Source of the DNA: Planctomyces sp. | GTDB lineage: Bacteria > Planctomycetota > Planctomycetia > Planctomycetales > Planctomycetaceae | DNA length: 50,939 nt | Reading direction: 5' to 3' | Assembly: GCA_016795105.1 (NCBI GenBank) | Contig: JAEUIH010000054.1 | Coordinates: 1-50,939, forward strand | Shown: piece after piece, positions 1,808-34,659 of the stretch | Position numbering within the stretch: the stretch's first letter is position 1 | Layout of the letters: the number at the start of each line of letters is the position of its first letter | The notes under the pieces: generated by a model | What the model was told of the DNA's origin: nothing | Databases searched by the model: none | What the model saw: only the letters and a program-made list of their open reading frames with translations | Translations under genes and position numbers: made by a program

Positions 1808-1843
1808 TTTCTCTGTTCCCCCTGAAACTGAGGCCATTCCGTC

Positions 1844-2577: not shown

Positions 2578-2583
2578 TGGGTC

Positions 2584-10181: not shown

Positions 10182-10866
10182 ATTGCCATTTGTCTCGTGC
10201 CTGTGTCCCACATATCGGCGGCCGAAGCTGCTCGAGAACTCCATCGCCTGTTTTCTCGCGCAGGACTATCCGACCGATCGCCGGGAACTGATCGTGCTGG
10301 ATGATGCCGGCGAGTTGCAGAGTCAGAACAGCGAAGGCTGGCAGATCATCAGCATTCCGCGACGGTTTCGGTCACTGCCGGAGAAGTTCAACGCTCTGGC
10401 GGGACTGGCCCGTGGTGAGATTCTCGTCGTATGGGAAGACGACGACATCTACCTGCCACATCACATCAGCAGCCACGTGGCGGCGATGAATGGTTACCTG
10501 TGGTCGAAGCCGTCGAAAGTGCTCAGCGACTACACCGACCAGATCGAGGAAGAAGATGCCACCGGCCGTTTTCACGCCAGCCTCGCGTTCACACGGCTGG
10601 CGTTTGAACAGGTCGGCGGCTGGCCACTGACGCTGCGAGGCGACTTTGATCAGCAGCTGATCTCGCGACTCAACAGCATCGGTCCCGCCGGAGACCCTTG
10701 CAGCGTTGTGAGTCCGTCCTACGTCTTCCGATGGAGATCAACGGGAGCCTATCACGGGCAGGCATTGATGCGGGGACCGGATGATGAACAGTGGTATCAA
10801 CGAGCATTTTCGGATGACGATTCAACCGGATCACGTGACAAAGCTCGGCGGCTGTCTAGTTTTTAA
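10171..10866 (+). CDS. Glycosyltransferase family 2
   Basis: The ATG at 10171, overlapping the preceding gene by 11 bases, gives a 231-residue GT2 enzyme. It has the N-terminal SCLCPTYRRP strand, LIVLDDAGE, and WEDDDIYLPHH, which is the metal-binding DxD region of the GT-A fold. The C-terminal part keeps the GGWPLTLRGDFDQQL acceptor-site segment, so the enzyme looks complete in its core. The final residues (ARRLSSF) and the TAA overlap the end of mcrC on the other strand by 11 bases. That may be a natural convergent overlap, or the mark of a junction where the defence block was inserted and replaced the original 3' end. Its likely target is the Thr/Ser-rich fibre encoded upstream. Confidence 0.8.
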   Translation: MSSELPFVSCLCPTYRRPKLLENSIACFLAQDYPTDRRELIVLDDAGELQSQNSEGWQIISIPRRFRSLPEKFNALAGLARGEILVVWEDDDIYLPHHISSHVAAMNGYLWSKPSKVLSDYTDQIEEEDATGRFHASLAFTRLAFEQVGGWPLTLRGDFDQQLISRLNSIGPAGDPCSVVSPSYVFRWRSTGAYHGQALMRGPDDEQWYQRAFSDDDSTGSRDKARRLSSF

Positions 10867-12211
10867 GCCAGGCACTCAGTGCCTTTACTGCTTCCCGTTT
10901 CACTTGCGAAATATCCCGAAGTAGATTCAGTCCAATAACCGCCAATCGCACTGGAGATTCACCGTCAAGAGGTCCTTGGACAAATTGGAGATCCGTTTCG
11001 AGATGGATATGCTCGCCGCGTGCATCCCAAAATGGGACGACAAAGAAACCCATCGCCGCGCGTTTCATTCGCATGTAGACGTACAGCTGGTTCCAGTCAG
11101 ACGCCTGAATCGCAAGACGAATCCGTCCCGGGTCCCCCAAGTCGGCGGCATGTGTTCGCTGAAGAACTTCCTTGTATTTTGTATCACCCACGACAGCGAC
11201 GCCGTTGGGACCTGCAAGGAAAATGTCGGGCTGATGGCGTTGTGTTTGTCGACCGACCAGGAAGTCCCATTCATGTTGAAAACGATGGTGCCACGCAGAA
11301 TCCGAAAGTGCATCTCTGGCAATCGACTCAGCAAACTTCTCAAAGATTCTTGGTGCATCGAGAACTATGGGAGCTGCGTGTCCGCCCGACACAGGCAAGT
11401 CGCTTCCCTGTAGCAGCATCTTTGCCCAGGCGAGCGCACGACGATAATAACCCGACGTGCGTCCCAACCGGGACCGGTGGAAGTCCGTGCTCGTGATTGG
11501 GATGTCGGAAACTGCACTGAACCATGAAGTCAACTGATGAAAAGGTTTCCATATCAACCTTGCCGCTTCAGTGGAGATGGTTCGTCCCATAGCCTTCAAC
11601 GCCCGGGCTGCGGCCCAGAGTATGCGGTTATCCCAGTTGTCGACGTTAAATTCTTCCCACTCGCACGGCAGTTTGTGCGGTCTTCCCAGAATCCCGTTAC
11701 GCACATACGCGGAGATGTTCAGGCGGCCGCGGACAAAACCACGCAACTCTCCCTCCTCGGACCGGTAATACGAGCGAAAGTCGCGCCGGCAGAGTTCTGT
11801 GAGCAGATTGGCGTAATGCTGACTCAGAAACAGAAGGAAGCGATGGGGGCCCCGTCGGCCTTCCCAGCCGGACATCTCACTGAAAACCGAAGCGCCCTCG
11901 CTCAACGCCACAAGTTCCAGAAATCTCCGCAAACCCAGGGCTTCATCATGCTGGCAGCCTTTCGGGGCAATCATCAGTAGTCGGTGCTGTCCTTCCACGG
12001 AGAATGGAAGAATACCGACATGGTCACAGGCAAGGACTGCAGGCTTGCCACGGTGAAAACCTTCCGCCAGCCAGCCGTTGGCCAGATATCGCTTTAGTGA
12101 TGCACGATGTTCAAAGAGTAGCTCCGACTGAACCGGATCCTGACAAGAGCCGTATTCAAGAAGCGTCAGCGTGCGATCAAGACTGATGGTTGAGATTTCA
12201 ACGGAAGTCAT
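10856..12211 (-). CDS. mcrC: McrC, 5-methylcytosine-specific restriction nuclease subunit
   Basis: The 451-residue protein matches the McrC family. The N-terminal half is a beta-rich partner-binding domain (ILPFSVEGQHRLLMIAPK near 67-84). The C-terminal half carries a PD-(D/E)XK nuclease core with PD at 328-329 and GDTKYK at 342-347, giving D329, D343 and K345 as likely catalytic residues, after EKF at 291-293. McrC binds the McrB ring, stimulates GTP hydrolysis and cuts DNA containing modified cytosine. Its start lies 2 bases after the mcrB stop, so they are one operon. It is the last gene of the minus-strand defence block and its stop overlaps the converging glycosyltransferase gene. Confidence 0.9.
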   Translation of the reverse strand: MTSVEISTISLDRTLTLLEYGSCQDPVQSELLFEHRASLKRYLANGWLAEGFHRGKPAVLACDHVGILPFSVEGQHRLLMIAPKGCQHDEALGLRRFLELVALSEGASVFSEMSGWEGRRGPHRFLLFLSQHYANLLTELCRRDFRSYYRSEEGELRGFVRGRLNISAYVRNGILGRPHKLPCEWEEFNVDNWDNRILWAAARALKAMGRTISTEAARLIWKPFHQLTSWFSAVSDIPITSTDFHRSRLGRTSGYYRRALAWAKMLLQGSDLPVSGGHAAPIVLDAPRIFEKFAESIARDALSDSAWHHRFQHEWDFLVGRQTQRHQPDIFLAGPNGVAVVGDTKYKEVLQRTHAADLGDPGRIRLAIQASDWNQLYVYMRMKRAAMGFFVVPFWDARGEHIHLETDLQFVQGPLDGESPVRLAVIGLNLLRDISQVKREAVKALSAWLKN

Positions 12212-12213
12212 GG

Positions 12214-13629
12214 TCAGGTTAGGCAGTCATCTAATGATCGAGTGAAATACTCTTGCAGTGAATCATCGCCCGGTACGACAGAGTGGTACTCCCGCAACAG
12301 CGGCTGGACCTGATACTTCCATTTCATCTGAACCTGTTGCTTGCGAGTTTTGGCCGTTGCTCCCGGTGATGGCAGGAAATATGACTGGCCAACTCCAAAT
12401 TCGATTGCGGAACCGACCTCTTGCATACTGCGAAGTCTCTTGTTCAGGCGGTCCATGAGGTCCGCCAGCTTTTCGCCGTACGCAGCATCTCCCGCAGCCT
12501 TCCAGACGTTACGCACGACTGCCGATTCCGGATCCATCGGATAAAGCCCGAAGCGACGACGAACGGCCACATCAATGTGCCCAATCGAACGGTCAGATGA
12601 ATTCATCGTGGCGATCACGAAGAGGTTATTCGGAACGACCATGTCGTCTCGATCATCGCAGCGAAACGGAAGCGTGATCTTCGTGTTTCGATACTCCAGT
12701 GCATAGACGAGTTCACCGAGAAGCTTGGGCAGGTTTCCGCGGTTGATTTCGTCGATGATTAACACCGCATCCGATTTCTGGCCCTCAGCCTTTCTGCACA
12801 GTCGCAAGAACGAACCGGCTTTGGTTTCAAATTGGAGTTTCGAGTCCTTCTCTGCAGGGCCAATGCCACCGACGAATTGCTCATACTCATAAGAGGGGTG
12901 AAATACGACAAGATCGAAGAGCCCCTCCTCACGATACTCATTGAGTTCTGCTTCGACTTCCTCATCAGTCGTCTCGGGCTCGACATCATTGCCTCTTAAA
13001 ACGCTCAACGCGATGCGTTTCGATTCCCGGGTCTTGCCGGTTCCAGGCGGGCCGTACACGATGATTTGTTTCAGTTGTTGCAGTAGTGCTTTCATGCTTT
13101 CTTCCACTTCGGAACTCTGGGAGGCGACATCTCCGCTGGGCAGCAGCCTGTTGAGCTTCTCTTTGAGGCTTGGATCTCGTTTCAGGTAGGCGTCTTTGAT
13201 CTTTTGACATTGTTCGGAACTCAACTGGATGACAGTGCGTGGTACGCTTCCGCCGCCGAAAATACCTTTCTCGAGTTCAACCGACAGATTGATTTGCCAG
13301 TCAACGATACGGCAGTGGCGATGCTCCTTTGCATTCTTTCGCGGATTCTTGTCGCTTTTTGGTGGAAGATAGGAACTTTCAACAACACCAATCCCGACTG
13401 CCTCGCTGGCTCCCTTATTCGCAACGACAGTGTCTCCAGGTCGAACCTCGTGGACGAATTCCCAAACCTGTTTCATGCTTTGGGGACCGACTAGCTCCGC
13501 AAGGCCCTCTTTCGACAGCCGTGATAGGTCTCTCTGGTTCGCCCAGTTGATCGTTATGCACCGCTGTTCACGCGTTTCTTCCCAAACGCGGGCCTTGTCG
13601 CCAGGTGCGATTTTCCAAACGGTGCTCAT
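12214..13629 (-). CDS. mcrB: McrB-type AAA+ GTPase with N-terminal EVE/PUA-like domain
   Basis: I chose the ATG at 13629 (471 residues); a TTG six codons upstream is possible but has no better ribosome site. Residues about 1-135 resemble an EVE/PUA-superfamily domain (WKIAPG at the start, ITINWA, then VRPGDTVVANKG and VGIGVV), a fold known to read modified bases in other McrB proteins. The AAA+ part has Walker A GPPGTGKT (193-200), Walker B LIIDEINRG (about 290-298) and MNSSDRS (about 342-348), the McrB counterpart of MNTADRS. It would bind modified DNA and translocate with McrC, whose gene follows 2 bases later. A 94-base gap separates it from the abortive-infection-like gene upstream. Confidence 0.9.
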   Translation of the reverse strand: MSTVWKIAPGDKARVWEETREQRCITINWANQRDLSRLSKEGLAELVGPQSMKQVWEFVHEVRPGDTVVANKGASEAVGIGVVESSYLPPKSDKNPRKNAKEHRHCRIVDWQINLSVELEKGIFGGGSVPRTVIQLSSEQCQKIKDAYLKRDPSLKEKLNRLLPSGDVASQSSEVEESMKALLQQLKQIIVYGPPGTGKTRESKRIALSVLRGNDVEPETTDEEVEAELNEYREEGLFDLVVFHPSYEYEQFVGGIGPAEKDSKLQFETKAGSFLRLCRKAEGQKSDAVLIIDEINRGNLPKLLGELVYALEYRNTKITLPFRCDDRDDMVVPNNLFVIATMNSSDRSIGHIDVAVRRRFGLYPMDPESAVVRNVWKAAGDAAYGEKLADLMDRLNKRLRSMQEVGSAIEFGVGQSYFLPSPGATAKTRKQQVQMKWKYQVQPLLREYHSVVPGDDSLQEYFTRSLDDCLT

Positions 13630-13723
13630 TCCAGATACCTGTTCCAATAACTTTCGCTGACGTCACACTCCGCGATTTGAATCTTATGGAGATTTAGACG
13701 CAAGAGCCGTCGCCAGATGTTGT

Positions 13724-14812
13724 TTAAGAACGCTGATTTGAGTCGTTATTTGCCGGTTCCTGCTCGAAGTAGCTGATCTCAGGAATACGGTGCCAGATGT
13801 ATTCGGGGCCTTTGTCGAGCAATGCATCGAACACACGGTATTTGGTGAGCAGATGCTTTAGATCCGTGCCATCGGCGAAGTGACTCAGCCCGTAGTAGAG
13901 AAGCAGGTGCATTTCAGGGTCAGATAGTTGTGCATTGTAGAGTCGAACCAGCTGCGTCTGAAGTTCCTTGTCATCATCTCTGGCGGCGTCAAAGCTGGTG
14001 TCGATGTATGCCAGGATTGTCGATTGTAAGCGGAAAACGTGCCCGAGGATTGCTCCGATTCGCTTCTCGTAAAACTCACGAAATCCGTCTCGAATCGAGC
14101 ATAACTCGAGGCGTAGTGACAAGGTTTTGCCATCAAAAGCGGGGATTCTTGTTTCGGCGTGCCCTTTGGGGGGAATGATCTGGTCAGTTGGTGCCGGTAG
14201 TGGCTTTGTGCATCCGAGGTGCGACTGGTGAAGCAGCATGCGCCGACGGCCGACGAAAAATCCAATTGTGGCCACTGTCATCGCTCGATCTGAACTCGAC
14301 TGGTCAATTGCTCCGAGGAGATCGTTCTCAATCTGACACAGGGCATGCTGTCCGGAGAGAGTTGCCGCTTTGGGATCGTCTCCACTGCCGCTGCCCAGTG
14401 GATTGACTGGACGGTAAGTCACTTCGCGGATCGCAGCTCTCCACTCCTGCATCAGCGTGAAGAGATGTTGCTCTTTTCGCTGCAGCAAGAACTCTCGTTT
14501 CTGTTCGTCCACTTGTTGTTGCTGTGATTTGAATGCCTTGAAGGCGGCGGTCGCAGCGAGGGCTGATACAAGGGCATTGAATACACCAAAGCTGTCGCCG
14601 AAGACGCCGGTCCGCGACCACGCGCCGCCAAGGAAGTAGAAACCTGCAACAAATGCCAACCATACGAGAATGGCGGCAATCCATAGCCAGTGGCGACGGA
14701 TTGATTGCCACGCATGCTGGAGCCAATTCTCGTTGCGAGTTGTCAAAGAATCGGGGGAGTTGAAGTGTTTCATTGCGTACTTCGCGGAGGATGGATGTGA
14801 TCTGATTGGCAC
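13724..14812 (-). CDS. putAbiC-like putative phage abortive infection membrane protein
   Basis: Two hydrophobic segments lie near residues 40-65 and 75-95. The second holds GVFGDSFGVFNALVSALA, the hallmark of the 'putative phage abortive infection protein' (putAbiC) family. A Gln/Lys-rich coiled-coil-like helix follows (about 95-125). The C-terminal part has LVRLYNAQLSDPEMHLLLYY, matching the family's 'RAQLSxxEllLLfYng' region. Such proteins are thought to sense infection from the membrane, but no biochemical activity is established. The start may be the GTG at 14812 or the ATG at 14773; neither has a clear ribosome site. It begins 9 bases after the unknown 257-residue gene, in the same operon. 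Confidence 0.7.
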   Translation of the reverse strand: MPIRSHPSSAKYAMKHFNSPDSLTTRNENWLQHAWQSIRRHWLWIAAILVWLAFVAGFYFLGGAWSRTGVFGDSFGVFNALVSALAATAAFKAFKSQQQQVDEQKREFLLQRKEQHLFTLMQEWRAAIREVTYRPVNPLGSGSGDDPKAATLSGQHALCQIENDLLGAIDQSSSDRAMTVATIGFFVGRRRMLLHQSHLGCTKPLPAPTDQIIPPKGHAETRIPAFDGKTLSLRLELCSIRDGFREFYEKRIGAILGHVFRLQSTILAYIDTSFDAARDDDKELQTQLVRLYNAQLSDPEMHLLLYYGLSHFADGTDLKHLLTKYRVFDALLDKGPEYIWHRIPEISYFEQEPANNDSNQRS

Positions 14813-14821
14813 GTACGCGAT

Positions 14822-15595
14822 TTACTCTTCGTTCTCATTTACCATCAAAGAAGGCCATGACCCAGATTCAACGCATGTGCGAATGTCTTCGAGGCAAGTT
14901 CGTTTGTTGATGCCAATGTGGACAAGACGGCCGTACGTCCTGCCTCCGTGTCCACGGCGCTGAGGCTCTAATCGGCGGCTGGCTACCGTGTATGCCTGAT
15001 TCAGGCTATTCACCAAAACTTTTACATACCCTGTCCCCAATTCAACCTGATCCTGTTCGACTCGCATGATGTCCGCTTCACGTTCCAGGGACAGCACTTT
15101 GTCGACGTAGATCGTGACCTCTGAGCGGCAGTCGCAGCACTCGAGTCGATGGCCCTTTCCCGGACGCATCTGCAGCCGTTCTTGTGTCTTTAGGCAAACT
15201 CGCTCGGCTTCAGCGATCAACTCCGGAGGCTTAAGTAATCGTGCGACTTCCGCTTCCGTCATACCGATGACAAAACGCTCCCCGGGCTCAAACACATCAA
15301 ATATGTCATCCTCACTTGTCCAGGGATTCAATGCAGACGGCAACCTTCCAAAAAAAGATCGGAGGTCTGGCGCGGCACGAAGGGACTCCCAGAGCCAAAT
15401 CATGTGTTGATCGCTGGTAAAGGTCTTCTGCAGTTCAGGAGATTCGCGTAGAACGAATACCCAGTCCCGAAAGCTGACAGGCGGTTCTTCGCTTGACGAT
15501 GTCATGTCATGAAGCACACGGGCACCTACACACAAGAGTTGAGCCGTGGTATCAAGACTGTCGGAAAAGTAACGCGAATGTGTGCTCTTGGCCAT
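14822..15595 (-). CDS. Unknown protein of the defence operon
   Basis: This is a 257-residue soluble protein with no signal peptide or membrane helix. The N-terminal half (about 1-110) is acidic and helical. The middle contains a Cys motif, ECCDCRSEVT, near residues 150-160, preceded by CLKTQERL, which could form a small metal site. The C-terminal 60 residues are rich in Arg/Gly/His (RRGHGGRTYGRLVHIGINKR), which may contact nucleic acid. I do not recognise the family. A good ribosome site (AAGGGGA) precedes the ATG at 15595, and the gene sits 20 bases after its upstream neighbour and 9 before the putAbiC-like gene, so it is almost certainly part of the operon. Confidence 0.65.
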   Translation of the reverse strand: MAKSTHSRYFSDSLDTTAQLLCVGARVLHDMTSSSEEPPVSFRDWVFVLRESPELQKTFTSDQHMIWLWESLRAAPDLRSFFGRLPSALNPWTSEDDIFDVFEPGERFVIGMTEAEVARLLKPPELIAEAERVCLKTQERLQMRPGKGHRLECCDCRSEVTIYVDKVLSLEREADIMRVEQDQVELGTGYVKVLVNSLNQAYTVASRRLEPQRRGHGGRTYGRLVHIGINKRTCLEDIRTCVESGSWPSLMVNENEE

Positions 15596-15615
15596 GCTAT
15601 TCCCCTTGTCCTTCT

Positions 15616-16125
15616 CTAAGTGGAACTAAACCCGCCACTTCGTCCCATATGAATATGCGAAGGCCAGTTATTGGCGTCCCATTGCGATAAAGGGATAAAG
15701 CTGCCATCGGCACTGACTGGCGGACCCGGGTGTGGGTCGAGGCGGGTTTGGTAGGAGTTGCCGGTTCGGATGGCGGTTTGCATGGCGTCGTAGATTTCGA
15801 GGATGATTCGTTTGGTGCGGTAGTCGCCGTTGTATTTTTCTTCGTCTTTGCGGCGGACGATGGGGAAGGTGTCCATGATGTAGCTGACGGCGTCGCGGGG
15901 TTTGGGAAAGCTGGCTTTGAGGCGGGCGAGGTCTTCGGGGGATTCTTCGTGGGGGCAGCCGTCGGATTTTCGGGCTGGACACCAGTCACCGTTTTCGTAT
16001 GCGGGTAGGTAGTGGTGCATGAACGCGGCATCAATGTCTGCGCGGAGTTGCCGAGATACGATTCGCCCCAACGCAGCGGCATGTCTGCGGCATTGCTCCA
16101 TTTGGCGGCTGCCTGTGTGGCTCAT
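15616..16125 (-). CDS. Small protein resembling the C-terminal domain of Eco57I-like methyltransferases
   Basis: The 169-residue product contains SYIMDTFPIVRRKDEEKYNG followed by YRTKRIILEIYDAM (about residues 80-115). The methyltransferase encoded just upstream ends with the matching YILSTFPTQQRYQEEQYGEF and RSRRMILDAF. Both are preceded by a similar 'RA(D/E)IDA' segment. In large type II/ISP and PglX-like enzymes this motif lies at the far C-terminus. The gene starts inside the stop codon of the methyltransferase gene (ATGA, 16122-16125), so it is translationally coupled. It contains no methyltransferase motif. It could be a duplicated accessory or specificity piece, or a remnant of a second R-M protein. 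Another frame is open over the same bases, but this one carries the family-like residues. Confidence 0.7.
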   Translation of the reverse strand: MSHTGSRQMEQCRRHAAALGRIVSRQLRADIDAAFMHHYLPAYENGDWCPARKSDGCPHEESPEDLARLKASFPKPRDAVSYIMDTFPIVRRKDEEKYNGDYRTKRIILEIYDAMQTAIRTGNSYQTRLDPHPGPPVSADGSFIPLSQWDANNWPSHIHMGRSGGFSST

Positions 16126-19100
16126 GACGGAACTCCCGTCGTTGTAGCGGCGGAGAAACGTGGCAATGCGACAAACGCATCCAAGATCATTCGGCGGGAA
16201 CGGAATTCACCGTATTGCTCTTCCTGATAGCGCTGCTGCGTGGGGAAGGTTGAGAGGATGTATTCCAACTCGGGGCGAGTCAGGTCGAAAAGGTCTCGGG
16301 CGACGATGGCGTCGATTTCGGCTCGAATTTGCAAGCGGGCGTCTTCGTTCGGTTCGCCGGGTATCTGATTTGGATCATCGGTTGCGGTCACCCAGCCGTC
16401 GGTTGCGAGCTGATTCCAGAATGGAATCATCTCGGGTCCCGTACATGAAAGGCGAAGACTGCGAACTACCAACTCGCGGACACGTGGGTCATCATGGTCA
16501 AGTCGTGGAAACGGGAAGCTGTCGAGAATTGTGTACGCCATTGAAAGGCTGGTTTTCTTGCGGGCGATGAAGTCCATCGAATACGAATTCGCTACAGCGA
16601 TCCAGAAAAGCATGTACCAGTCGAATTCATCATCGGTGAACCGAATCGTTGGTACCTTATGACCGCATAAAACTCCACGAGGTATCAGCGACGATACAAG
16701 TGTCCGTTCATTGGTTGGACTGGCAACGTCACAGAACCCGATGCGGAATTGACCCATTCGTTCGATACACTTTTCTGGCACGCGTTCTCTCGCAACGTAC
16801 CACTGCGGCGACACGCATTTGTCGGCGTTTCCGAACGGCAGGTCCTCCCAAACTGCAGCTCGGCCTCGTCCACTTCGGTATCCCTTCGCACGATGATCGA
16901 ACTGGGAAACCATTCGTCCTTCGTACAACGGAATTCCAGATGGATCTTCATCGAAGAGTGCGCGATCGGTCCCCATGTCGATCTCGCGCATGTAAACACG
17001 TCGCGGTGGGCCAGCAGTCTCATCACCAAACGCCGGCCAGCGGTACATTCTGGCGGCGATGTCGATGTCCATTTGATTGCCGAGCTCCATAATCGCCAGT
17101 GCGTCCGGGGAGAACTCGCGAACGAGACGCACCGGAATCGACAGGTAGCGCCCCGACTTCACGTCGGCTAGACCGGAAATCGACCGGATGTTGAACGCTG
17201 CACGGAACGTGTCAGTGGTGTCGCCCACAGGGGCGGCGTACAGGCAGAATTTTGTTCTCGAATCAACGTCCTTGAACCACACTTCGTTTGCGTTCTCGAA
17301 GCCATAAAGACAATCGAGCCGGCACGTTTCGTAGAGGGCCTGACGGATCGCCATGCAGTTTGCGCCGTTGTAGAGGCCTTCGGGAACGAGTTGCGCCGCC
17401 CAGCCACCGCGACGCGTCAACGACAATGCAGCCTCTACGAACATGCGGTAGACATTGAAATCGCCCTTGCCCAGATTGCCTGGCGCGAACATTCGAAAAC
17501 GACCGCTCTGCTTAATAAAGTGGACCAAAGCATAGAGGTCTCGGCAGTTTTCCTCCCAGCGTGCGGCGATTACTGGGTCCTGGAGCAACGACTCGATGAT
17601 CTTTTTTTGTCCGTCACGATCCTGAAAACGAACCTGCGGGTCATACGTTGAGAAGAATTCCTTCGCATCTGGGCTCAACGTGTCCCAAGGCGGATTTCCC
17701 AGCATCAAGTCGAAGCCGCCACAGGAATGGACTTCCGGGAACTCCAGATGCCAGTGGAAGAATTGGTCGTGTTTCAAATGGTCTGTGACCAATGTCTCGA
17801 TATGCTCGGGCAGCGGGTGATCATCAGCGATATCGGAGATGAAGCGTTGCGTCACACCGACGGGTTCGGTCGTTCCTGCTCGCATCACCTTTCGCTGAAC
17901 GAACGCCGTGCACCAGGTATCGGCAATGCGTTTCTTCTTCAGGTACTCAGGGGCCTGCTTGCTGCGGGCAAATGCCTCGCTCTTTTCGCGGACTTGAGTC
18001 GGATTGTCGTCCGGCAACTCCTCCAGACTGGTCGCTGCCTGCAGCAATTGCAATTGTGCTTCTTCGTCCTGCCGTTGGAACAGTCCGCCAAAACCCCGAC
18101 GTTCGCGCGCATTGAGCCGCTTGAGTGCGGAACAGGCGGTGCTATCGTCCCCTTCGAGCGGCTTGAAGGCTTCGTCCGGGATTCCGCCAATGATGAGTTC
18201 CGGAGTTGTGCCGATCAAGCTATTACCGACTCGAATGTGGTGGTCCAGAAACGAGAGCGGTCTTCCAGGCTCCAACGCTTCCAGCCAGAGACTGACACGG
18301 CAAAGTTCGGCCGACATGGGGTTGATGTCTACGCCGTACAGACAGCGACCGATGACGTCCCTCAGCGCGTGCTGGTAGAGCAACGGCGACGGTTCGCTTT
18401 CTCCTTGAGCATTCGCTCGTATGCGAGCCAAGTGTCTGGCCAAGCGGTGGGCTGCCCCGACCAAAAAGTGCCCACTTCCAACGGCCGGGTCGCAGACTTT
18501 CAGATCGAGGATGGCTCTTTCGGCCTCGGCACCATTTCTTCCCCGCACTGCGTCTTGCACGACTGGTTCAAGCGCCGTATCGAGCAGGAATTGAACCAAC
18601 GAATCGGGCGTGTAGTAGCTGCCAGATGTTTTCCGGTCGTTGCCGGCGAATTCTGCAAAAGTAAATCGCTTGCCGTCACCGCTGATCTGTGGCGTAAGAG
18701 CCAGCAGTGTTTCGTAGACTCCACCCAACTCTTCTGAGCCAAGGTTCTTGTAGTCCACAGGACGAAGGACTTTTCCCTGTCGAGTGAATGCCAGGTGCCG
18801 CAGTGCTTCCAGGAAGTCGGCGTTGGTCAATTCGACAGGGTTGGAAATCCCCAGGCTCGCAGCATTTAGGTTCGCTGTACTTTCCGGGTTCCAGAGAAAA
18901 CTGCCCAGCACCGGAAGTGCAAGATGCTGCCGCACGGCTTCAAAACGATCTTCGCCGCACAACGCTCCAATCAGCAGCCCGAACTGATTCCAAAGGTCTC
19001 CGTGCCGACTGCCTTTGATCTTGCTCGCCAAATGCCGCAGTCGATTGGTGCTGTAGTGGGTTGCATATCGCTCACGAGCCGTGGCTGCTTCTGGAGTCAT

Positions 19101-20051: not shown

Positions 20052-20053
20052 CT

Positions 20054-22888
20054 TTACTGTAACCTTGGCAGAAGAACATAAGCGCCCAGAATATCGACCG
20101 GAAGAACAGGCTCGATGCTGACCCGGCCTTTGACCTTTGATGCCTCGCGGACTCGTTCATGGGCTTCGAGTTGGGTTGCAGCTCGTTCGGCGGCCACAGC
20201 CTCGAGTGACTGCTGCATGGCTGGCAGTGACTTCACCATCAACCCGATTTGCTGTTGAATGGCAGTTGCGACAAGGTTTTGTTCCGGCCGAGCCGCTAGA
20301 AGTTGTTCTGCCTCTGCTGCAGAAAGCCAGGAAAGATTGGCAGCCAAACCTTTTGCCGCAATCGGCAGCACTTCTTCGCACAGAATCGTCTCGCTCGCAG
20401 TCCCGGAAATCTTCAAGTGAAAGCGAAATCGTGCAATCACTAGAGTTGTTCGGGCCTGCACCAGCGATGTGGAAACGACGCCGCAACGACATGCGAGGGG
20501 AGCGGCATCTCGTGCAGCGGCGTCAAGTGCCTGGTCGATGGTCCAGCCCGCCAGGCCTTCAACGATCGGACTCGTCCGCCCCAGATACGTTTCACCTTCC
20601 AGAAGCGGCAGATCAAATCGTCCAGTGAATGCGTCATCCCGTCCGACAGCCTGCCGCAACGCACGCGGCGTTTCCAGATTGAGATGCACGGTCATCGCAC
20701 CGTCGCGTTCCTGAATCGGGACGTTGGCGGCCTGCAGGACAGTTCGAACGAACTTCTTCACGTCCTCGCTGCGACCGATAGCTTCACGCACGCTTCGCAA
20801 CTCTGCAGCTACAGAATCCTTATCGAGAGCATGCTGGGCAAAACGTGAACGGCTGGCCTTCTCCTTCTCCCGTGCGTTGTCCCACTCCGCGTGAAATGTT
20901 TCGACCTGTTCGGTCTCTTTGTCGCCGAAGTCAAAGGTCCTTTGTTTCTCGTCGTTGCGGGTCATCTCACGGAACAAGGCTCCTTCGAACAGAGTCTCCG
21001 CGATCTGTTCACTTGAGCCTGGCACCGCGACGGTCACGCCTAGGTCGCTCTTGATGCTCTTATGCTTTCGAATCAGGACGTCGAGAATGACTCCGTCGAT
21101 CGGGTTGTCTTTGCCGTAGTAAGTAATTACGCGGACTTCGGGCTTTTCCTGCCCGAACCGGTCGACGCGACCTTCTCGCTGTTCATGACGTGTCGGGTTC
21201 CAGCACAGGTCATAGTGCAGAATGGCGTTGAATGACTGCTGGAGATTCACGCCTTCCGACAGACAGTCGGTGCAAACGAGGACATACTCTCCGCCAGACT
21301 TGGTCAGCGTCTCGATTCGTGACTCGCGCTCCGCAGGTGGCAGCAGACCAGTCACTGATTCGATCTGCACTTTGGCTGGAAGAGCCTGACGGAGATGTCG
21401 GGCGACATACTCGGCGGTGTCGACGAAACGACAGAAAATGATTGGCCGGAAATCAGCTTTCAGAAGAGCTTTGATCTCTTTGATGGCTCCCTGAAGTTTC
21501 GAATCCGAATCGCCAGATAATTCCTGAGCCCGCTTTGCGAACGCCAGCATTCTGCGTCGCGACGATTCGGCTTCATTCTCTGTATCGGAGCCCGGACTGA
21601 AGTCGATGGCCGCCACATCATCGGCGTCATCCTGATCCAGAACCGTCCGACGCCCGACGTCTTCAATCTCTTCTTCTTCGGCCTGATCGACGGCAGCTCG
21701 GTTTCGCAGGGTCGCCACGGCTGCTGCCGGACTGGACGAGAAACATCGCAGCAAGGCGAGAGCAGACCAATATCGGACGCGGCGTTTTCGTTTGTCGCTT
21801 CCTCCATCAGAAACGAATTCACGGGCGAACTGAACAATATCATTGAACAGTTGACGGTATTCGTTGCTGAAATTGTATGTCTGCTCTTTGTCGAGTCGTG
21901 TGGGGAACGACGTGTCGGTTTCGAGGTAGTGGCGAATGTCGGCACGGCGACGCTGAACAAGGTGTCGTGCCAGTTTTCGACGGAGTCCTTCCCGTTCAGC
22001 TCGATCAATATCTGCCGGAAGTTCAAAGAACTCTTCGTCGAGCAGGCCTAGCAATGATCGGAAAGCACCTTCGTTCCCGCTGTGAGGCGTTGCTGTTACC
22101 AGGACAATGTGGCGATCCGGTTTCGCAGCAATCTTTCGAATCAGTTCGAAACGCTTTTGTCGGCCTCGTCCCACGCCACCAATCAATGTGCAGCTGTGAG
22201 CTTCATCTACGATTACAAATTCCGGACACTTCATTTCGAAGTCAGCAGCACGTCGGTCGGTCTTGATGAAGTCGGTCGAGACGACGACGAACGGATGACG
22301 GTCAAACACCGAGACGCCAATCGGCAGGTTCCGTTCAAGTCGCTGGATCGTACTGCTGAGCACCAGTTCCGCTTCGATGTGGAACTTTTCGAGAAGTTCC
22401 TTCTGCCATTGCTCCGCCAGATGAGGCGGACAGAGAACTGCGAGGCGACTAATTTCACCACGGTCCAGGAGTTCTCGTGCCACGAGGGCAGCTTCAACGG
22501 TCTTTCCGATCCCAACGTCGTCGGCAATCAGCAGTCTGACCGGATCCAGCTTCAGTCCCATCATCAGTGGGACAAGCTGATAGGGACGCGGTTCGACAGC
22601 GATGCGTGCAAAACTGCGGAACGGGCCGGCAGCCGCCCGCGTCGAAAGCCTGGCTGCCTCCCGTAATAGATGTCCCGACCTGAAGTCACCGATGTCGTCT
22701 GCCGAAGGGAGCGGAAATGTGGCCGACTCAACCGTTTCAACGGCTGGCAGGATCCCGACGATCTCCTCATCCAGTCCGCCAACGGGGCGAACCATCAGAA
22801 GTTCATCTGTCGACTCCGGGAGAACGACCCATTCGCGGCCTCGCGATCGGACCAGTGTGCCGGGTTTGGAAAGCGTAACAGCACTCAT
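20054..22888 (-). CDS. SNF2/SWI2-type helicase (DISARM DrmD-like)
   Basis: The ATG at 22888 overlaps the stop of the upstream helicase gene by 4 bases and gives 944 residues. An ATG 17 codons further upstream lies inside that gene and is less likely. Motifs are Walker A DDVGIGKT (about 123-130), DEAH (about 228-231), VTATPHSGN, and the C-terminal lobe motifs TDCLSEGVNLQ and QREGRVDRFGQ, all typical of SNF2 and RapA-like DNA translocases. An acidic linker (EEEEIEDVG) separates the lobes. The last 250 residues are helical with no recognised domain. It probably moves along double-stranded DNA to help the restriction complex tell self from non-self. The length and the methyltransferase neighbour fit DrmD, but that name needs a profile search. 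Confidence 0.85.
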   Translation of the reverse strand: MSAVTLSKPGTLVRSRGREWVVLPESTDELLMVRPVGGLDEEIVGILPAVETVESATFPLPSADDIGDFRSGHLLREAARLSTRAAAGPFRSFARIAVEPRPYQLVPLMMGLKLDPVRLLIADDVGIGKTVEAALVARELLDRGEISRLAVLCPPHLAEQWQKELLEKFHIEAELVLSSTIQRLERNLPIGVSVFDRHPFVVVSTDFIKTDRRAADFEMKCPEFVIVDEAHSCTLIGGVGRGRQKRFELIRKIAAKPDRHIVLVTATPHSGNEGAFRSLLGLLDEEFFELPADIDRAEREGLRRKLARHLVQRRRADIRHYLETDTSFPTRLDKEQTYNFSNEYRQLFNDIVQFAREFVSDGGSDKRKRRVRYWSALALLRCFSSSPAAAVATLRNRAAVDQAEEEEIEDVGRRTVLDQDDADDVAAIDFSPGSDTENEAESSRRRMLAFAKRAQELSGDSDSKLQGAIKEIKALLKADFRPIIFCRFVDTAEYVARHLRQALPAKVQIESVTGLLPPAERESRIETLTKSGGEYVLVCTDCLSEGVNLQQSFNAILHYDLCWNPTRHEQREGRVDRFGQEKPEVRVITYYGKDNPIDGVILDVLIRKHKSIKSDLGVTVAVPGSSEQIAETLFEGALFREMTRNDEKQRTFDFGDKETEQVETFHAEWDNAREKEKASRSRFAQHALDKDSVAAELRSVREAIGRSEDVKKFVRTVLQAANVPIQERDGAMTVHLNLETPRALRQAVGRDDAFTGRFDLPLLEGETYLGRTSPIVEGLAGWTIDQALDAAARDAAPLACRCGVVSTSLVQARTTLVIARFRFHLKISGTASETILCEEVLPIAAKGLAANLSWLSAAEAEQLLAARPEQNLVATAIQQQIGLMVKSLPAMQQSLEAVAAERAATQLEAHERVREASKVKGRVSIEPVLPVDILGAYVLLPRLQ

Positions 22889-25800
22889 GCCTGAGGAACT
22901 CCAAAGATATCCGGGTGCTGGCGGAAGATCGACATCCAATCGGCTGCGTGATGAAAGCGAATTACGGTGATTCCATTAGCGATCAGATTCTCACTGATCT
23001 GTTCGTCAGCCCGTATCGTGTCTGGCTGGTCATGGACCGGACCGTCGATGTAGATGGCTGTATTGAAATCACGGTAGAAGAAATCTGGTCGTGTCATGCA
23101 GTAATCGACGAGGTACTGGGCATCACTCGGCGGACGAAACATGTAGCGGTCGATCATGTCGAGCCACCGTTTCTCCAGCTGACTGTCGCAACGGCGACGA
23201 AGCTCCACCATCCGTTCGCCTCGCGAACCCATACCGCCCGCTGGACGACACTCCGAGCGGGCCAGCTCTGCGAGAATATCGCGGATCAGAAAGCGATCGA
23301 GCTGTTGGTGGTCTGGCTGATTGAAATAATCGAGCAGGCACTCGTAACAGGCCTTGCCGCAAGCGTCGGCTTTCAGGTCTTCCAGTGTCTCCGGATCGAA
23401 GTGGCACACCGCCAGTGCGCGACGAGCGATGGCCGGAATCACCGACGGATCTTCTGCCAGCTGCCTCAAAACGCCAGCACCGCCTTCCGATGATTCGTAG
23501 AACAGGATTTCGTTCCGTTCTTTCGGTGACGGCAACGGTTCGGAGGTCAATTCCCGAGGCTCAAGCTGGAAGTGCTTCAGAATCGCTTCCTTGAACGCTG
23601 CCTGCAGACTTGCCATTTCCGGAAGACTGCGCACTGGCTCGAAACGAATGACCAGTGCGTTCTTTGTATCGTTCACAAAGGGGACGACACGCATTTGCCG
23701 TCCGGCTGAGGCATCTTCCTGATCGTCCTCGTCGGCTTGATTCCGTCCCCAGTAACCGCGTTCCAGATCCAGCCAGAAGCCGGAGTTTTCATTGGGTTTC
23801 TGCGTAGCCCATCCCAGATTGATTCGATACAAGTCCGTTGCGTCGGCGTAGCTGAGCTTCATGGCCAGATTGCCATCCACGTAAACTTCCGCATCTTTGC
23901 GATCGAGCTTTCCGCCAATCTCTGGGAATCGGTAGGACGTGACCAAACGGTAACCAAACCGCTGACGTTCTTCTTCGTCGCAGGTAATTCGCTGTGCCAG
24001 CTTCAGGCTGCAGTTCTGCAGCTGAACCAGGTTTTCGACGATCGCCAGTCCCTCGAGTGCGGTGCCACATCTCTCACAGACCTCGCTGAGATTCGTGCCA
24101 ACTTCCAGATGACCATACCCACACTTGAGGCACCGTTTAATGGTGGTAGTGACGAGCGAATGTGTCTCCTCGATGTCCTCAGAACCGAAATCGAGGTTGA
24201 CCTTGTAGACCCGATATCGAGCGCCTTCGTGATAGACCAGGGCACGCGGACCGAATTCGGAGATTGCCAAAAAACGCGGACGCGAAACGTACTCATCACG
24301 TCCCTTCCTGCGTCGGCGGGCAGGAACGAATGCGGAAATCGGCAGTCGCGGAAAGTTGTAACCAGGCAGGAATCCTTCTGCTGCAAAATACCGGTAGGAA
24401 TAGAAGTCGCCTTCGTAAATGCCTTCCGCTTCTGTGAGCAACCGGATTTGCGTTTCTGCCTGTGACCGAAGCCGTGATGAGTGTTTTCGCTCCGGCTCTG
24501 GACGGGAATGGTCCAGAATAATCTTATGATGCAGTTCACGCTGACGGACGGCAGCACGGTACATTTCGCGCCAGCGTTCGCAGGCTCTGTCGAATGATCG
24601 CTCAATCTGTTCGAGCACCTCACGCGTCCAGTTTGAATGGAACCAGCCTGCCGTTGCGAGATGGTCAGCAATCGTCGCTACGAGGTCATTCGCCTTTTCA
24701 AGAGCCCTCGCTCGATGAGCAGGATTCACCAGCGCTTCGCGGAGGCTATCCTTCACAGGGAGATGGATCTTGCCCTCTTCCCGGCGAATCTCCAGAACAG
24801 ACATCAGTGTTTTGCCGAGATCTGGTTTCACGACTTCCATCCAAATCGCATGGATGTGCGATCGAACCAAGTCTCGATTTCTCAAGTCGATTCGCGGTGC
24901 TGCGACCGATCCTGCAACCATGTGTCGCGGCTGACGAAAGTAGTACTGATCGTGTGGACTCTGCCCCGCGCAGTATGTGTAAACCAAGGCTGGCTGACCG
25001 CCTCGGCCCGCGCGTCCGCTGCGCTGAGCATAATTGGCGGGCGTTGGGGGAACGTTTCGGAGATTGACGACGTTGAGCTGCGAGATGTCGACGCCCAGTT
25101 CCATCGTCGGAGAGCAGAACAGCAGCGGCAAATCAGCACTTCGGAACCGATCCTCCCGTTCTTCCCGATCTTCCGATGCAACTTGCGCTGTATGCTCCCG
25201 TGCTTCCAGCAAACATTTCAGGTCGATGAAATTGCGGTAACATTCCACAAAGTACTTATTGACCTCCGGTGGCATTTCCCCGGATTCCAGAAGTCGAGTT
25301 CGATCGATCGGACGAATATCGCCGTTCCCAGCAATCCAACGGAGAGCGTCGTGATTCAACTGATATCCTGGAATGTCACCACTGCGAACCTGTTCCAGAA
25401 TCCCATATCGCCGCAGGGCCATGAATAGAAACTGAATCGCCTTGTCGACATCCTCCCTCGAGAGTTTCGTGCCCGGAGCAAGGTGTTCCAGCATCATTCG
25501 CTTCAGGTAGCGGCCAAAGCTACCAAAGGACGAGACAAACAGACCGCTTTGTTCCTTTGGTTGCTTCGCACGGGGATAGGCAACTTGGGACCGCACCAAC
25601 TCACGAGTGTCTTCCAGATACCAAACGGTCCCTTCCAGCAGACGAGGATTGGTCTGCTCAACCAGATCAAGGTGCTTTTGCGGATCGAGAGAATCGACCT
25701 TGATTGCAAGACTGCGACGAAGGACATCGAGAAGCGTCCTGAGAATTTCCTCTCGAACATCCTGTGGGCAAGCGCGCAATCCCGGTGGAGTTTCCACCAT

Positions 25801-28134
25801 CACTTCGGATTCACGATCGATACGGACTGTGAACCCGGTCTTCCAAAGTTCGTCTTCACTCAACAGGCTGTCATCACCGGTGAGACCTTCGTAATCGAAC
25901 GTCAGCATCCCGCAGTCTTCAAGGTTTGGCGCTGTGACTCGCCAGCCACGCTGCAGGTCGCGATACAGATAGTAGTCGATCACACGCCGCAACGCTTCTT
26001 TCGTCGCGTTTCGGGCAGGACCACGCACGTCCGAATCGGCCGCATACTCATCGAACTCAAGCGACAGGGCTTCGAAGACGCTGCGAGACAAATCACCGTG
26101 AGATAGCCCGGCTTCCCCTTTTGCCGTTGCCGCTTTGTGCAGTGCCGAACGCAGCAGTGCGACCTGAGCGAAGTCATTGAAGTGCCCTGCCTGCAGTGAT
26201 GCGTCTTGTCGGTTGTCAGTGAAGCTGAGTAGCTTTCTCGCCTCAGCCTTCAGGCTTGAATTGCTCTGCAATTCGATCAATGCCCGCACTGCGAGAATCG
26301 TCGTCGCCGTACTGCGGCTGTCGACTCCGAGTGTCGCCAGCTTTTGTCGTTCTGAGCGTTGCAGTCGCGTATATGCCACGCCGCAGTGTGGATGCAGGCA
26401 GAACAGAAAATTGTTGCGAATCAAGGCCGCTTCAATGCCATGACCTTCAGCGACCAGCATGCCCTGGGGATTGACGTGCACAATCTCTGGCAGATCTCGA
26501 CGCTGGTCAGGCCGAATACGTTCTGTTCCCTGAGCGGTCATTTCTTTCATGAACGATGGCAGTCGATCCAACACCGCCGGACCATCGCCTGCCGGCCATG
26601 GATGTTCTTTTGATACGAAGAGATATGCATCAACGGATTTTTCGTCGTCGGCATCTCGACGGTTTTCTCGTGGCGTCAGGCACTGACCGTCCTTCTCCCC
26701 CTTGAGCGTCACGCGATAGTACGCGGTTCCACAGTGACGGCAGAACGCCATGGGATAAAGCAGTTTTTCCGGCTCCTTCGGGTGTGCTACCTGCTTATGG
26801 ATACTGAGATATCGATCCGTCTCCGGCTCAATGGTCGCCCATACCGTGTCGCCTCGTGTGAAGAACTGATGCAAACGGAACGCAAAGATGGGAAACCTCG
26901 CGGATTCATTTCGCCGAAGATTTGATCCTTTCATCAGGAATTGCTGGATCACCGGCACGCAGGCCGCTGCATCGACCCCAGTAGCTGCAGCCAGTGATTG
27001 GGCGGCACTCTCTTTTCCCCTTAGCCGTTGCGGCGCTTGCCGAATCAACCGCCCGGTGGACTGTTCTGTTCGAACGCCGAATGTGCTTTCGATCCATGAA
27101 GCCAGCGGATGGTTCCGAAACTCTTCGTAGTCTTCAGGCGGGCTTTTGGAGTCCACTGTGCTTCGTATGGATTCCGCAAATGCAGCGTCAGTAAATTCAA
27201 TCTCCGGAGTGGAACGTTCGAGCGTTTCTCCAATGACCTGATCCGGCTCAATGGAGGTACCGAAGAGCGTAGACGCCACAGCGGCTACAGCTTTTTTTTG
27301 ATCGAGGGAGTTTCCTTCACTGGCCATCGTCGCAGATGTTCCGACGCAGATCATGTCGTGTCCACCGAACGCGAGTCGGCAACGACGAATGAGGAGGGCA
27401 ACGTCAGCCCCCTGCCGGCCGCGGTACGTATGGAGTTCGTCAAAGACCAGATAGCGAAGTCCCTGTGCGGCCCGGACGATCTCCCGATCTTCCGTTCGCG
27501 TCAGCAGCAGTTCAAGCATCATGTAATTGGTCAGCAGGATATCGGGAGGATTGCTGCGAATGGCCTCGCGTTCCTCTCCCTTCTCCTGGCCGGTATATCG
27601 AGCATAGCGAACCGGTGATTGGCCTTCGGGATAGCCTTTTTTCAGGAACTTCGCCAGTTCCTCATCCTGGCTGTTTGCCAACGCGTTCATGGGGTAAACG
27701 ACGATCGCCTGAACGCCTCGTCCCGTACCCCGGCGAAGGATGTGGTCGACGATCGGCACGATGTACGTCAGACTCTTTCCAGAGCCAGTTCCGCTGGTTA
27801 GAACATAGCTTTTGTTCTCTTTGGCTTTCCGGATGGCTTCCGCCTGATGCATGTGCAGCGTTAGTTGCTTGCCGGTGTGGTCTGTATCCGATTTGTCGGC
27901 GCGAAAAATGCGGCGGCATTCCGAATGCAGCAGCTTTTGGTCCACCAGCGAGTCGATCGTGCCGCCCGGAAGAAATGTCGGATTGAGCTGTAACAGTGGC
28001 TCCGGCCAAAGCTCCCCATCCTTAAGCGCCTCTTCGACCTTCGCGTTGATCCCAGGGTCCGAAATCTTGATGAAACTGCGTGTGTACCTTTCGTAGTCCT
28101 CGACGAGGCGATTTCGCAGATCAAACACGTCCAT
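22885..28134 (-). CDS. Giant DEAD/DEAH helicase with DUF1998 and C-terminal nuclease-like domain
   Basis: The 1749-residue protein has Walker A SGTGSGKS (114-121), DELH (232-235), SAT (267-269), then a second lobe with SPTMELGVDIS (1008-1018) and QRSGRAGR (1037-1044). A zinc-ribbon-like set follows (C1335, C1338, C1353, C1356), then a DUF1998 region with ESSEGGAG (1547-1554) and C1577, C1592, C1596, C1599, as in MrfA and DruE-type proteins. The last 110 residues resemble a Vsr/DUF559 endonuclease: E1640, PDFF (1683-1686), YIDG (1695-1698), H1701 and a closing GITVIRFHH strand. It is the first gene of the operon and overlaps the SNF2 gene by 4 bases. It may do the work of separate helicase, DUF1998 and nuclease subunits. 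The nuclease call is weaker than the helicase call. Confidence 0.85.
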   Translation of the reverse strand: MDVFDLRNRLVEDYERYTRSFIKISDPGINAKVEEALKDGELWPEPLLQLNPTFLPGGTIDSLVDQKLLHSECRRIFRADKSDTDHTGKQLTLHMHQAEAIRKAKENKSYVLTSGTGSGKSLTYIVPIVDHILRRGTGRGVQAIVVYPMNALANSQDEELAKFLKKGYPEGQSPVRYARYTGQEKGEEREAIRSNPPDILLTNYMMLELLLTRTEDREIVRAAQGLRYLVFDELHTYRGRQGADVALLIRRCRLAFGGHDMICVGTSATMASEGNSLDQKKAVAAVASTLFGTSIEPDQVIGETLERSTPEIEFTDAAFAESIRSTVDSKSPPEDYEEFRNHPLASWIESTFGVRTEQSTGRLIRQAPQRLRGKESAAQSLAAATGVDAAACVPVIQQFLMKGSNLRRNESARFPIFAFRLHQFFTRGDTVWATIEPETDRYLSIHKQVAHPKEPEKLLYPMAFCRHCGTAYYRVTLKGEKDGQCLTPRENRRDADDEKSVDAYLFVSKEHPWPAGDGPAVLDRLPSFMKEMTAQGTERIRPDQRRDLPEIVHVNPQGMLVAEGHGIEAALIRNNFLFCLHPHCGVAYTRLQRSERQKLATLGVDSRSTATTILAVRALIELQSNSSLKAEARKLLSFTDNRQDASLQAGHFNDFAQVALLRSALHKAATAKGEAGLSHGDLSRSVFEALSLEFDEYAADSDVRGPARNATKEALRRVIDYYLYRDLQRGWRVTAPNLEDCGMLTFDYEGLTGDDSLLSEDELWKTGFTVRIDRESEVMVETPPGLRACPQDVREEILRTLLDVLRRSLAIKVDSLDPQKHLDLVEQTNPRLLEGTVWYLEDTRELVRSQVAYPRAKQPKEQSGLFVSSFGSFGRYLKRMMLEHLAPGTKLSREDVDKAIQFLFMALRRYGILEQVRSGDIPGYQLNHDALRWIAGNGDIRPIDRTRLLESGEMPPEVNKYFVECYRNFIDLKCLLEAREHTAQVASEDREEREDRFRSADLPLLFCSPTMELGVDISQLNVVNLRNVPPTPANYAQRSGRAGRGGQPALVYTYCAGQSPHDQYYFRQPRHMVAGSVAAPRIDLRNRDLVRSHIHAIWMEVVKPDLGKTLMSVLEIRREEGKIHLPVKDSLREALVNPAHRARALEKANDLVATIADHLATAGWFHSNWTREVLEQIERSFDRACERWREMYRAAVRQRELHHKIILDHSRPEPERKHSSRLRSQAETQIRLLTEAEGIYEGDFYSYRYFAAEGFLPGYNFPRLPISAFVPARRRRKGRDEYVSRPRFLAISEFGPRALVYHEGARYRVYKVNLDFGSEDIEETHSLVTTTIKRCLKCGYGHLEVGTNLSEVCERCGTALEGLAIVENLVQLQNCSLKLAQRITCDEEERQRFGYRLVTSYRFPEIGGKLDRKDAEVYVDGNLAMKLSYADATDLYRINLGWATQKPNENSGFWLDLERGYWGRNQADEDDQEDASAGRQMRVVPFVNDTKNALVIRFEPVRSLPEMASLQAAFKEAILKHFQLEPRELTSEPLPSPKERNEILFYESSEGGAGVLRQLAEDPSVIPAIARRALAVCHFDPETLEDLKADACGKACYECLLDYFNQPDHQQLDRFLIRDILAELARSECRPAGGMGSRGERMVELRRRCDSQLEKRWLDMIDRYMFRPPSDAQYLVDYCMTRPDFFYRDFNTAIYIDGPVHDQPDTIRADEQISENLIANGITVIRFHHAADWMSIFRQHPDIFGVPQA

Positions 28135-28184
28135 AGGTCAAGACTCGTTTCAGGTGACATCGCGGGAGTTGTCGGCCGTTTCTG

Positions 28185-28238
28185 AGTAAACCCGCAAGTC
28201 ACGCAGGGACGAACCTCTGCATCACTTGCCTGTTTACT
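28185..28238. promoter_or_regulatory. Large imperfect inverted repeat, probable operator of the XRE regulator
   Basis: The divergent gap between the giant helicase and the XRE gene holds AGTAAACCCGCAAGT (28185-28199) and ACTTGCCTGTTTACT (28224-28238), which match as an inverted repeat at 13 of 15 positions. The symmetry continues inward through GCAG on the left and CTGC on the right, so the arms span about 22 bases around a centre near 28211. This is the size and shape of a dimeric or tetrameric HTH operator, placed where a regulator could control both its own gene and the defence operon. Binding is inferred, not shown. Confidence 0.65.
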
Positions 28239-28291
28239 GCAAACAGCTTACGATGGCTCCCCTAGGGACGCAACCGGACCGGGGAATTGTG

Positions 28292-28630: not shown

Positions 28631-28676
28631 TTGTGTCTTCACAATGCAGTAGAGAAATCGAAAGGCAAACGATTAC

Positions 28677-34607: not shown

Positions 34608-34659
34608 TCGTCCACTCCAAAACCTAATTTCTTGTCGACGCCACAAGGCGACCATCACA

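Follow-up and report, generated by a model that had tools for sequence, protein, structure and literature searches.

An ARMADA Type I-like locus with McrBC in a planctomycete encodes a chimeric methyltransferase and its displaced native tail

Eight open frames run head to tail on the minus strand, from position 28134 to position 10856, of a Planctomyces sp. contig (GenBank assembly GCA_016795105.1, contig JAEUIH010000054.1), and they raise the question of whether helicase, methyltransferase and McrBC genes arranged like one operon form a new defence system or a described system with added partners. The window, as we call the whole stretch of DNA that was analysed, is this entire contig of 50,939 bases, one of 391 in a source genome of 8.9 Mb. 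A preliminary description of the DNA had proposed a single eight-gene system. Our analysis instead indicates that the locus probably consists of an ARMADA Type I core, a separate Type IV McrBC module and rare extras, and that its methyltransferase arose by a module exchange in which the native tail was left behind. This chimera with its stranded native tail is the part most worth pursuing: ARMADA was described only in 2025, the available text of the describing preprint (PMC12458937) does not state how it picks its DNA target, and a natural chimera whose breakpoint zone is bounded, with the displaced native end alongside, offers a handle on which part of the enzyme sets the motif and which part binds the helicases.

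Proteins were named with Pfam, PADLOC and NCBIfam profiles together with motif inspection. The first gene (22885..28134, minus strand) encodes a YprA-like (DruE-like) helicase of 1749 residues with DEAD, Helicase_C and MZB/DUF1998 domains (DruE3, 1e-117), a Walker A motif, a DELH motif and CxxC pairs at residues 465, 1335, 1353 and 1596. In its C-terminal nuclease-like domain, E1654, P1683-D1684, D1697-G1698 and H1701 are kept across relatives, yet these conserved E, PD, DG and H residues come without a Pfam nuclease match; an active Vsr-type nuclease fused to this end of YprA is an ARMADA trait, as are a BrxA-like insert, a beta-barrel zinc module and a MarR-like domain. The second gene (20054..22888, minus strand) encodes a BrxHII/DrmD/DpdE-like SNF2 helicase, 944 residues from its ATG, which contains Walker A and DEAH motifs and matches the PADLOC models for DpdE (3.5e-245), DrmD (5.1e-84) and BrxHI/BrxHII (9.9e-58 and 2.4e-49). 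The third (16122..20051, minus strand) encodes a PglX-like adenine N6 methyltransferase of 1309 residues, assigned by Eco57I and N6_Mtase, by the motifs DPAVGSGHF and NPPW and by PADLOC DrmMI (1.1e-63). The profiles bear out the proposal that the core joins homologues of DISARM drmD and drmMI to a Druantia-like DUF1998 helicase. Each of the eight frames has a single stop, located at its end. The recomputed junction between the YprA-like and SNF2 genes is a 4-base overlap when SNF2 starts at ATG 22888 (and not at the TTG at 22939 given in the list of open reading frames); a 2-base gap separates SNF2 from the methyltransferase gene, which overlaps a 169-residue gene by 4 bases, followed by gaps of 20 bases to a 257-residue gene, 9 bases to a putAbiC-like gene, 94 bases to mcrB (with its start at ATG 13629) and 2 bases between mcrB and mcrC. 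With these two ATG starts, the eight minus-strand genes and all junctions are as first described. A simple scan of 10500-29500 returned 2 promoter-like sites versus 8.3 in shuffles and 19 terminator-like sites versus 18.8, an excess of neither, so that a single transcript is neither proved nor disproved.

The core is constant in related genomes. Related loci, denoted by L numbers, were the best 80 of 311 from a methyltransferase scan with one genome per species. All three core genes are present in 58 of the 80, and these 58 all have them on a single strand with YprA first, SNF2 second and the methyltransferase third; loci without the full core are mostly cut short, and L053 is a long locus without an upstream YprA. 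In the accessible part of the Bell et al. preprint of September 2025 (PMC12458937), ARMADA comprises YprA-like, BrxHII-like and PglX-like genes, and Type I generally has YprA first. The window likewise has a YprA-like helicase with MZB/DUF1998 in first place, then a BrxHII/RapA-like SNF2 helicase, then a PglX-like N6 methyltransferase. It differs from Type I in that the methyltransferase is chimeric, the native tail is a separate gene, and the 257-residue, putAbiC-like and McrBC genes stand behind. It differs from Type II in that a GajB-like helicase with a RelE-like domain (ArmD), the last gene of that type, is absent among the eight proteins and YprA is first rather than third. Gene content and order make ARMADA Type I the probable place of the locus.

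At the level of sequence, an identity profile and two trees show the methyltransferase to be a chimera of two ARMADA lineages, which we present as new here. Scanned in 75-residue steps, its identity to the enzymes of L004-L018 is 52-97% as far as residue 600 and then drops across a mixed zone (residues ~620-780) to mostly 15-35% from residue 826 on; over this last part L054 is 58-65% identical up to residue 1200, and L021 and L081 are 28-61% identical. Both trees were built from 27 chosen rows. In the first, residues 1-620 (18192..20051, minus strand), the native N half, fall with a support of 100/100 in clade A, the clade of L004-L018, L067 and L075. In the second, residues 780-1309 (16122..17714, minus strand), the C half of another ARMADA lineage with presumed target recognition, spacer and foreign tail, group with L054, L021 and L081, again at 100/100. 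Clade A together with the window needs 7 changes in the C-half tree, which means that the C half has been swapped in other ARMADA methyltransferases as well. In BREX, according to the accessible text of PMC11341690, it is the C-terminal domain of PglX that recognises the motif; spacer helices come behind it, and the protein closes with a conserved region whose function is unknown. If this domain layout can be carried over by analogy to the ARMADA methyltransferase, the exchange would have altered the enzyme's target motif. The available text of PMC12458937 mentions ‘target recognition’ a single time, in connection with zinc modules.

The 169-residue gene that overlaps the methyltransferase gene (15616..16125, minus strand) is the native end that the chimera lost. 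Its product has no family match in Pfam or PADLOC. From residue 27 onward it is homologous to the C-termini of clade-A methyltransferases, with 64% identity to L007 and 63% to L005 and L004, in comparison to only 40% over 43 residues with the tail of its own methyltransferase. A tail profile made from 45 tails, the window being left out, gives the 169-residue protein 119 bits, 5th of 77 loci, and the window methyltransferase's own tail 34 bits. This score and the likeness to clade A identify the gene as a displaced native tail, derived from the C-terminal methyltransferase tail of that clade and, as judged from the profile score, undecayed; the alignment upholds the preliminary description, which had called the gene a methyltransferase tail. 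Compared with solved structures, a predicted structure of the tail (predicted local distance difference test score, pLDDT, 76.3) drew no match with an E value of 0.001 or better.

Separate tails also occur at other ARMADA loci. Sixty-six loci among L004-L083 carry a tail (L172-L174, chosen for holding tails, were left out of this count), and 9 of them have a second one, always downstream and on the same strand. The candidate at L071 was dropped, as it is a second whole methyltransferase. Orphan tails are thus found in 8/66 loci (L013, L014, L025, L046, L052, L067, L068 and L081), and in six of these (L014, L025, L046, L067, L068 and L081) genes intervene between the methyltransferase and the orphan tail. 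The intervening genes of L046 encode a GmrSD enzyme with a RAMA domain and an nSTAND3 protein with an Mrr match just under the cut-off, and one of those in L081 a protein that has an HNH domain together with a NACHT match below its cut-off. Reversed frames searched as a control yielded 0 matches. In five further controls, two or more segments were seen in 1/69 loci for the SNF2 C-terminus, 0/59 for the YprA C-terminus, 1/62 for the SNF2 N-terminus, 2/79 for the methyltransferase N-terminus and 4/80 for the methyltransferase middle. One-sided Fisher tests of the 8/66 tails, which ignore the relatedness of loci, gave 0.005 against 0/59, 0.014 against 1/69, 0.021 against 1/62 and 0.025 against 2/79. 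Several observations weigh against reading these tails as traces of exchange: the value is 0.105 against 4/80; the orphan tails of L013, L014, L025 and L067 score below 30 bits, and if only the 4 tails of at least 30 bits are counted the value becomes 0.074 against 0/59; and at L052 (4145-5021) a short tail segment lies in several tandem copies behind the methyltransferase, a local repeat. The orphan tails suggest, but do not prove, that the 3' end of the methyltransferase gene has repeatedly been a site of exchange and insertion, and they hint that ARMADA may change specificity and take up cargo, for example Type IV restriction enzymes, at this position.

A complete McrBC had been reported behind the core, and AAA_5, PF10117 and the motifs confirm it. 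McrB (12214..13629, minus strand) is a GTPase of the NxxD (NSSD) type with an unnamed N-terminal domain, recognised by AAA_5, by a match to the solved E. coli McrB (2.1e-28) and by its motifs; McrC (10856..12211, minus strand) is a nuclease with PD...DTK (PF10117, 3.5e-33). The pair thus has the order of McrBC systems, an NxxD-type AAA+ McrB followed by an McrC with PD...DxK, and is distinct from CoCoNuT, in which McrB has an NxD motif and a coiled coil. An assignment of the McrB N-terminal domain as EVE was dropped; the relative L112 has its EVE match at 38-170 and its window-like part at 420-516. McrBC classically reads modified cytosine. The NPPW motif marks the methyltransferase as an adenine N6 enzyme, so that the clash between modification and McrBC that had been anticipated is not evident.

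The association of McrBC with the core recurs, in varying arrangements. Among the 80 related loci the window's McrB was found in three (L030, L070 and L080) and its McrC in two. A McrC family model was positive in 12/47 genomes (those behind 48 of the related loci), and in 4/47 the gene is on the ARMADA contig: in L070 and L080 McrBC lies directly downstream of the core on the same strand with 4-base overlaps, in L004 (seen in L149) McrC is divergent and ~2 kb upstream of YprA, and in L021 it is encoded by the opposite strand ~3.6 kb downstream, where the contig ends. The other eight genomes have McrC on another contig (L028, L040, L043, L046, L053, L054, L068 and L060/L067). A sample of the same class contained YprA in 22/248 genomes (E 1e-50 or better), McrC in 50/248 and putAbiC in 3/248. 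Five of these genomes hold both YprA and McrC, which are together only in the window and elsewhere on different contigs or 2 Mb apart; McrC thus stands beside YprA in 1/22 loci, the window itself, a result that counts against our interpretation. In an McrB tree of 33 rows, weakly resolved and with the window on a long branch, the five ARMADA-linked rows (including L030, although McrC was not found with it) do not form one group; they require 4 changes, the shuffled mean being 4.8, and 96/500 shuffles were as low. On plasmids, for which 71 records had a YprA match and ten loci were opened, with incomplete gene annotation, 2/10 have annotated McrB and McrC genes behind ARMADA. One is Deinococcus radiodurans MP1 (L179, 15001-33627), where the core is ARMADA-like, its methyltransferase gene is split, and McrBC follows on the same strand at a distance of 5 kb or more, with an insertion sequence (IS) element and small genes between; the other is Nocardioides pNOCA01 (L180), where McrBC lies directly behind the core on the same strand with a 4-base overlap. 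In four of the ten, two helicase genes are joined by a gene of methyltransferase size, with no McrBC annotated (Rhodococcus twice, Roseomonas and D. radiophilus), the third gene being annotated as hypothetical in Roseomonas, and in another the methyltransferase is followed by an EVE-domain gene; of the remainder, one is unannotated, one ends before the methyltransferase and one is a Thermus match without another annotated core gene. Like the window, Nocardioides pNOCA01, Micromonospora L070 and Amycolatopsis L080 have the core followed by McrB and McrC on the same strand; unlike in the window, their McrB overlaps the methyltransferase gene directly, and the McrB proteins of L070 and L080 have a DUF4357 N-terminus.

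These features suggest how the locus could work and how it could have arisen. The ARMADA Type II experiments in the accessible part of PMC12458937 found each of four genes to be needed, as were most motor motifs and NPPW, and the defence to be non-abortive. By extension from ARMADA Type II and BREX, the methyltransferase would mark an adenine motif in host DNA, and the SNF2 and YprA-like helicases, the latter with its C-terminal nuclease-like domain, would attack DNA lacking the mark. A C half from another ARMADA lineage, bringing its own stop codon, would have replaced the native C half, while the native tail would have stayed as the overlapping 169-residue gene. McrBC would be a separate Type IV module, sitting where ARMADA loci often hold other restriction or defence cargo, and might act on phages whose DNA is modified and in this way evades the core, much as complementary protection by BREX and Type IV restriction has been reported (PMC8565348, in the part available). 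BREX with BrxU, as presented there, resembles the window in pairing methyltransferase-based defence with Type IV restriction for complementary cover; it differs in its core genes and in having the GmrSD-type BrxU instead of McrBC.

Two other explanations of the gene set have to be weighed against an ARMADA core with a separate McrBC. All eight genes could act together from one promoter as one co-evolved system, as the preliminary description had it, an idea encouraged by the head-to-tail order, by the operon-like junctions and by the same-strand McrBC behind ARMADA in L070, L080, L179 and L180. The available text of Bell et al. 2024 (PMC11090510) also calls the link between a DISARM-like cassette and McrBC particularly prevalent for the McrB group with the NxxD motif, and PMC12458937, as far as its accessible text goes, recalls that this earlier cassette is often beside canonical McrBC. 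The neighbourhood comparison, however, leaves only the first three genes constant (58/58 loci holding all three), which is largely the outcome that the preliminary description had named as speaking against one system, the putAbiC-like and 257-residue proteins of the window are found in 0/80 related loci and beside no other ARMADA locus searched, the few McrC genes on ARMADA contigs include one divergent and one on the opposite strand, the longest gap, of 94 bases, precedes mcrB, and the ARMADA-linked McrBs are not one group in the weakly resolved tree; we regard a single co-evolved system as improbable. Alternatively, core and McrBC could have arrived separately in a defence island and not cooperate. 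Such chance clustering would fit the flanks, where phage tail genes border the operon on one side and a SIR2-STAND gene does so on the opposite side, as well as the extras, which are not conserved, and the McrBC arrangements, which vary between genomes; but in several phyla McrBC again comes immediately after the core, overlapping by 4 bases in L070, L080 and L180, and the published association (PMC11090510, available part) is at odds with accident, so that we consider this explanation unlikely too, if less so than the previous one. The cassette described in that text has YprA/DUF1998, SWI2/SNF2 and PglX genes beside an NxxD-type McrBC, as the window does, the difference being that three genes separate methyltransferase from McrB in the window. 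Since the hybrid core (PMC12458937) and its McrBC link (PMC11090510) are both in print in the texts consulted, the set is not undescribed, contrary to what had been thought. The locus is probably ARMADA with a recurrent partner and rare extras, not one new eight-gene system.

A further question is whether the stranded tail is merely a relic of the exchange or works as a subunit, providing the chimeric methyltransferase with its native tail in trans. The undecayed sequence, the 4-base overlap, which would suit coupled translation, and a coding-type base composition (66.5% G+C at third codon positions, GC3) are what a working subunit would show. L172 (6045-7594, minus strand) carries a tandem pair of C-terminal methyltransferase pieces, one of them a stand-alone piece of 285 residues, which overlap by 4 bases as in the window; this contig ends before the rest of the methyltransferase gene, which lessens its value as a parallel. 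A recent split would look alike, most other orphan tails are broken or short, and the genomes of L054 and L021, the nearest owners of the same C half, are without a separate tail, from which it follows that the tail is not generally needed; the absence of a tail there also weighs against our broader interpretation of the locus. The genome of L081 holds several further tail pieces. On balance a function in trans is rather unlikely. A wider conjecture, to which we likewise give only a low probability, is that ARMADA can swap the specificity half of its methyltransferase as a cassette and that the conserved C-terminal tail is a separable docking domain able to work in trans, such that the 169-residue protein would enable the old helicases to cooperate with a foreign target-recognition module, and other orphan tails would mark past cassette exchanges and cargo insertions.

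Parts of the locus resemble other defence systems. DISARM class 1 shares the drmD-like and drmMI-like genes, but the window has one helicase with a fused MZB and not split drmA/drmB, and DrmB and DrmC are absent from the listed best matches. Druantia Type III shares the DruE-like helicase, but there is no DruH match among the eight proteins, and SNF2 and methyltransferase genes are present. The ARMADA SNF2 helicase and PADLOC model PDLC02853 give a full-length match (3.5e-245); the model's name, DpdE, taken alone, would point to a Dpd system, in which dpdE accompanies other Dpd and 7-deazaguanine genes. In NCBIfam the helicase scores under the cut-offs of both DrmD and DpdE (DpdE 184.5 versus 500), so the PADLOC name does not make the locus a Dpd system; none of the other seven proteins has a Dpd model as its best match.

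The two genes between the tail and McrBC are rare accessories and perhaps form a backup layer. The 257-residue protein (14822..15595, minus strand) belongs to no known family, being without a match in Pfam, NCBIfam and PADLOC, and its single-sequence structure model is uninformative (mean pLDDT 34.9). Its sole relative in the plasmid collection, 21% identical, is on a Nostoc plasmid, and that relative's own piece, used as a query, finds only itself. On this plasmid (L086, 1546-11131) the distant relative is flanked by an SNF2-like helicase, into which a transposase gene is inserted, and by a NERD-domain protein. Viral contigs and phage records contained no relative, 98 relatives gave one weak 75-residue match (G094), and a two-row profile, which had no positive control, found the protein in 0/4 and 0/292 further genomes. 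The putAbiC-like protein (13724..14812, minus strand; 362 residues) has one hydrophobic stretch near its N end, by eye, and matches PF16872 over the curated cut-off (38.1 bits, cut-off 22; 2.2e-9) on residues 255-331 only. Plasmids and viral contigs had no match to it, and putAbiC is not mentioned in the available text of PMC11090510. A second putAbiC protein in the same genome (G000:C45:2039-2308, L147) gives a stronger match than that of the window.

The operon has mixed surroundings. On its left, phage tail genes (major tail protein, tape measure; 1367-4578, plus strand) extend up to the contig start as a prophage or phage-like remnant, and a glycosyltransferase-like gene (9985-10866, plus strand) converges with mcrC (10856-12211, minus strand), overlapping it by 11 bases. 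Upstream of the operon, a divergent gene (29326-31809, plus strand) encodes a SIR2/nSTAND5/TPR protein that belongs to no PADLOC family and scores 15 bits against Avs5 (cut-off 1000). Farther to the right are a weak HEPN match under the cut-off (34188-34658, minus strand) and a 1504-residue protein with beta-helix and RTX-type repeats (45700-50214, plus strand). The G+C content is 59-61% in the first 10 kb of the window, compared with 52-57% across the greater part of the operon and 51-54% across the greater part of the right half.

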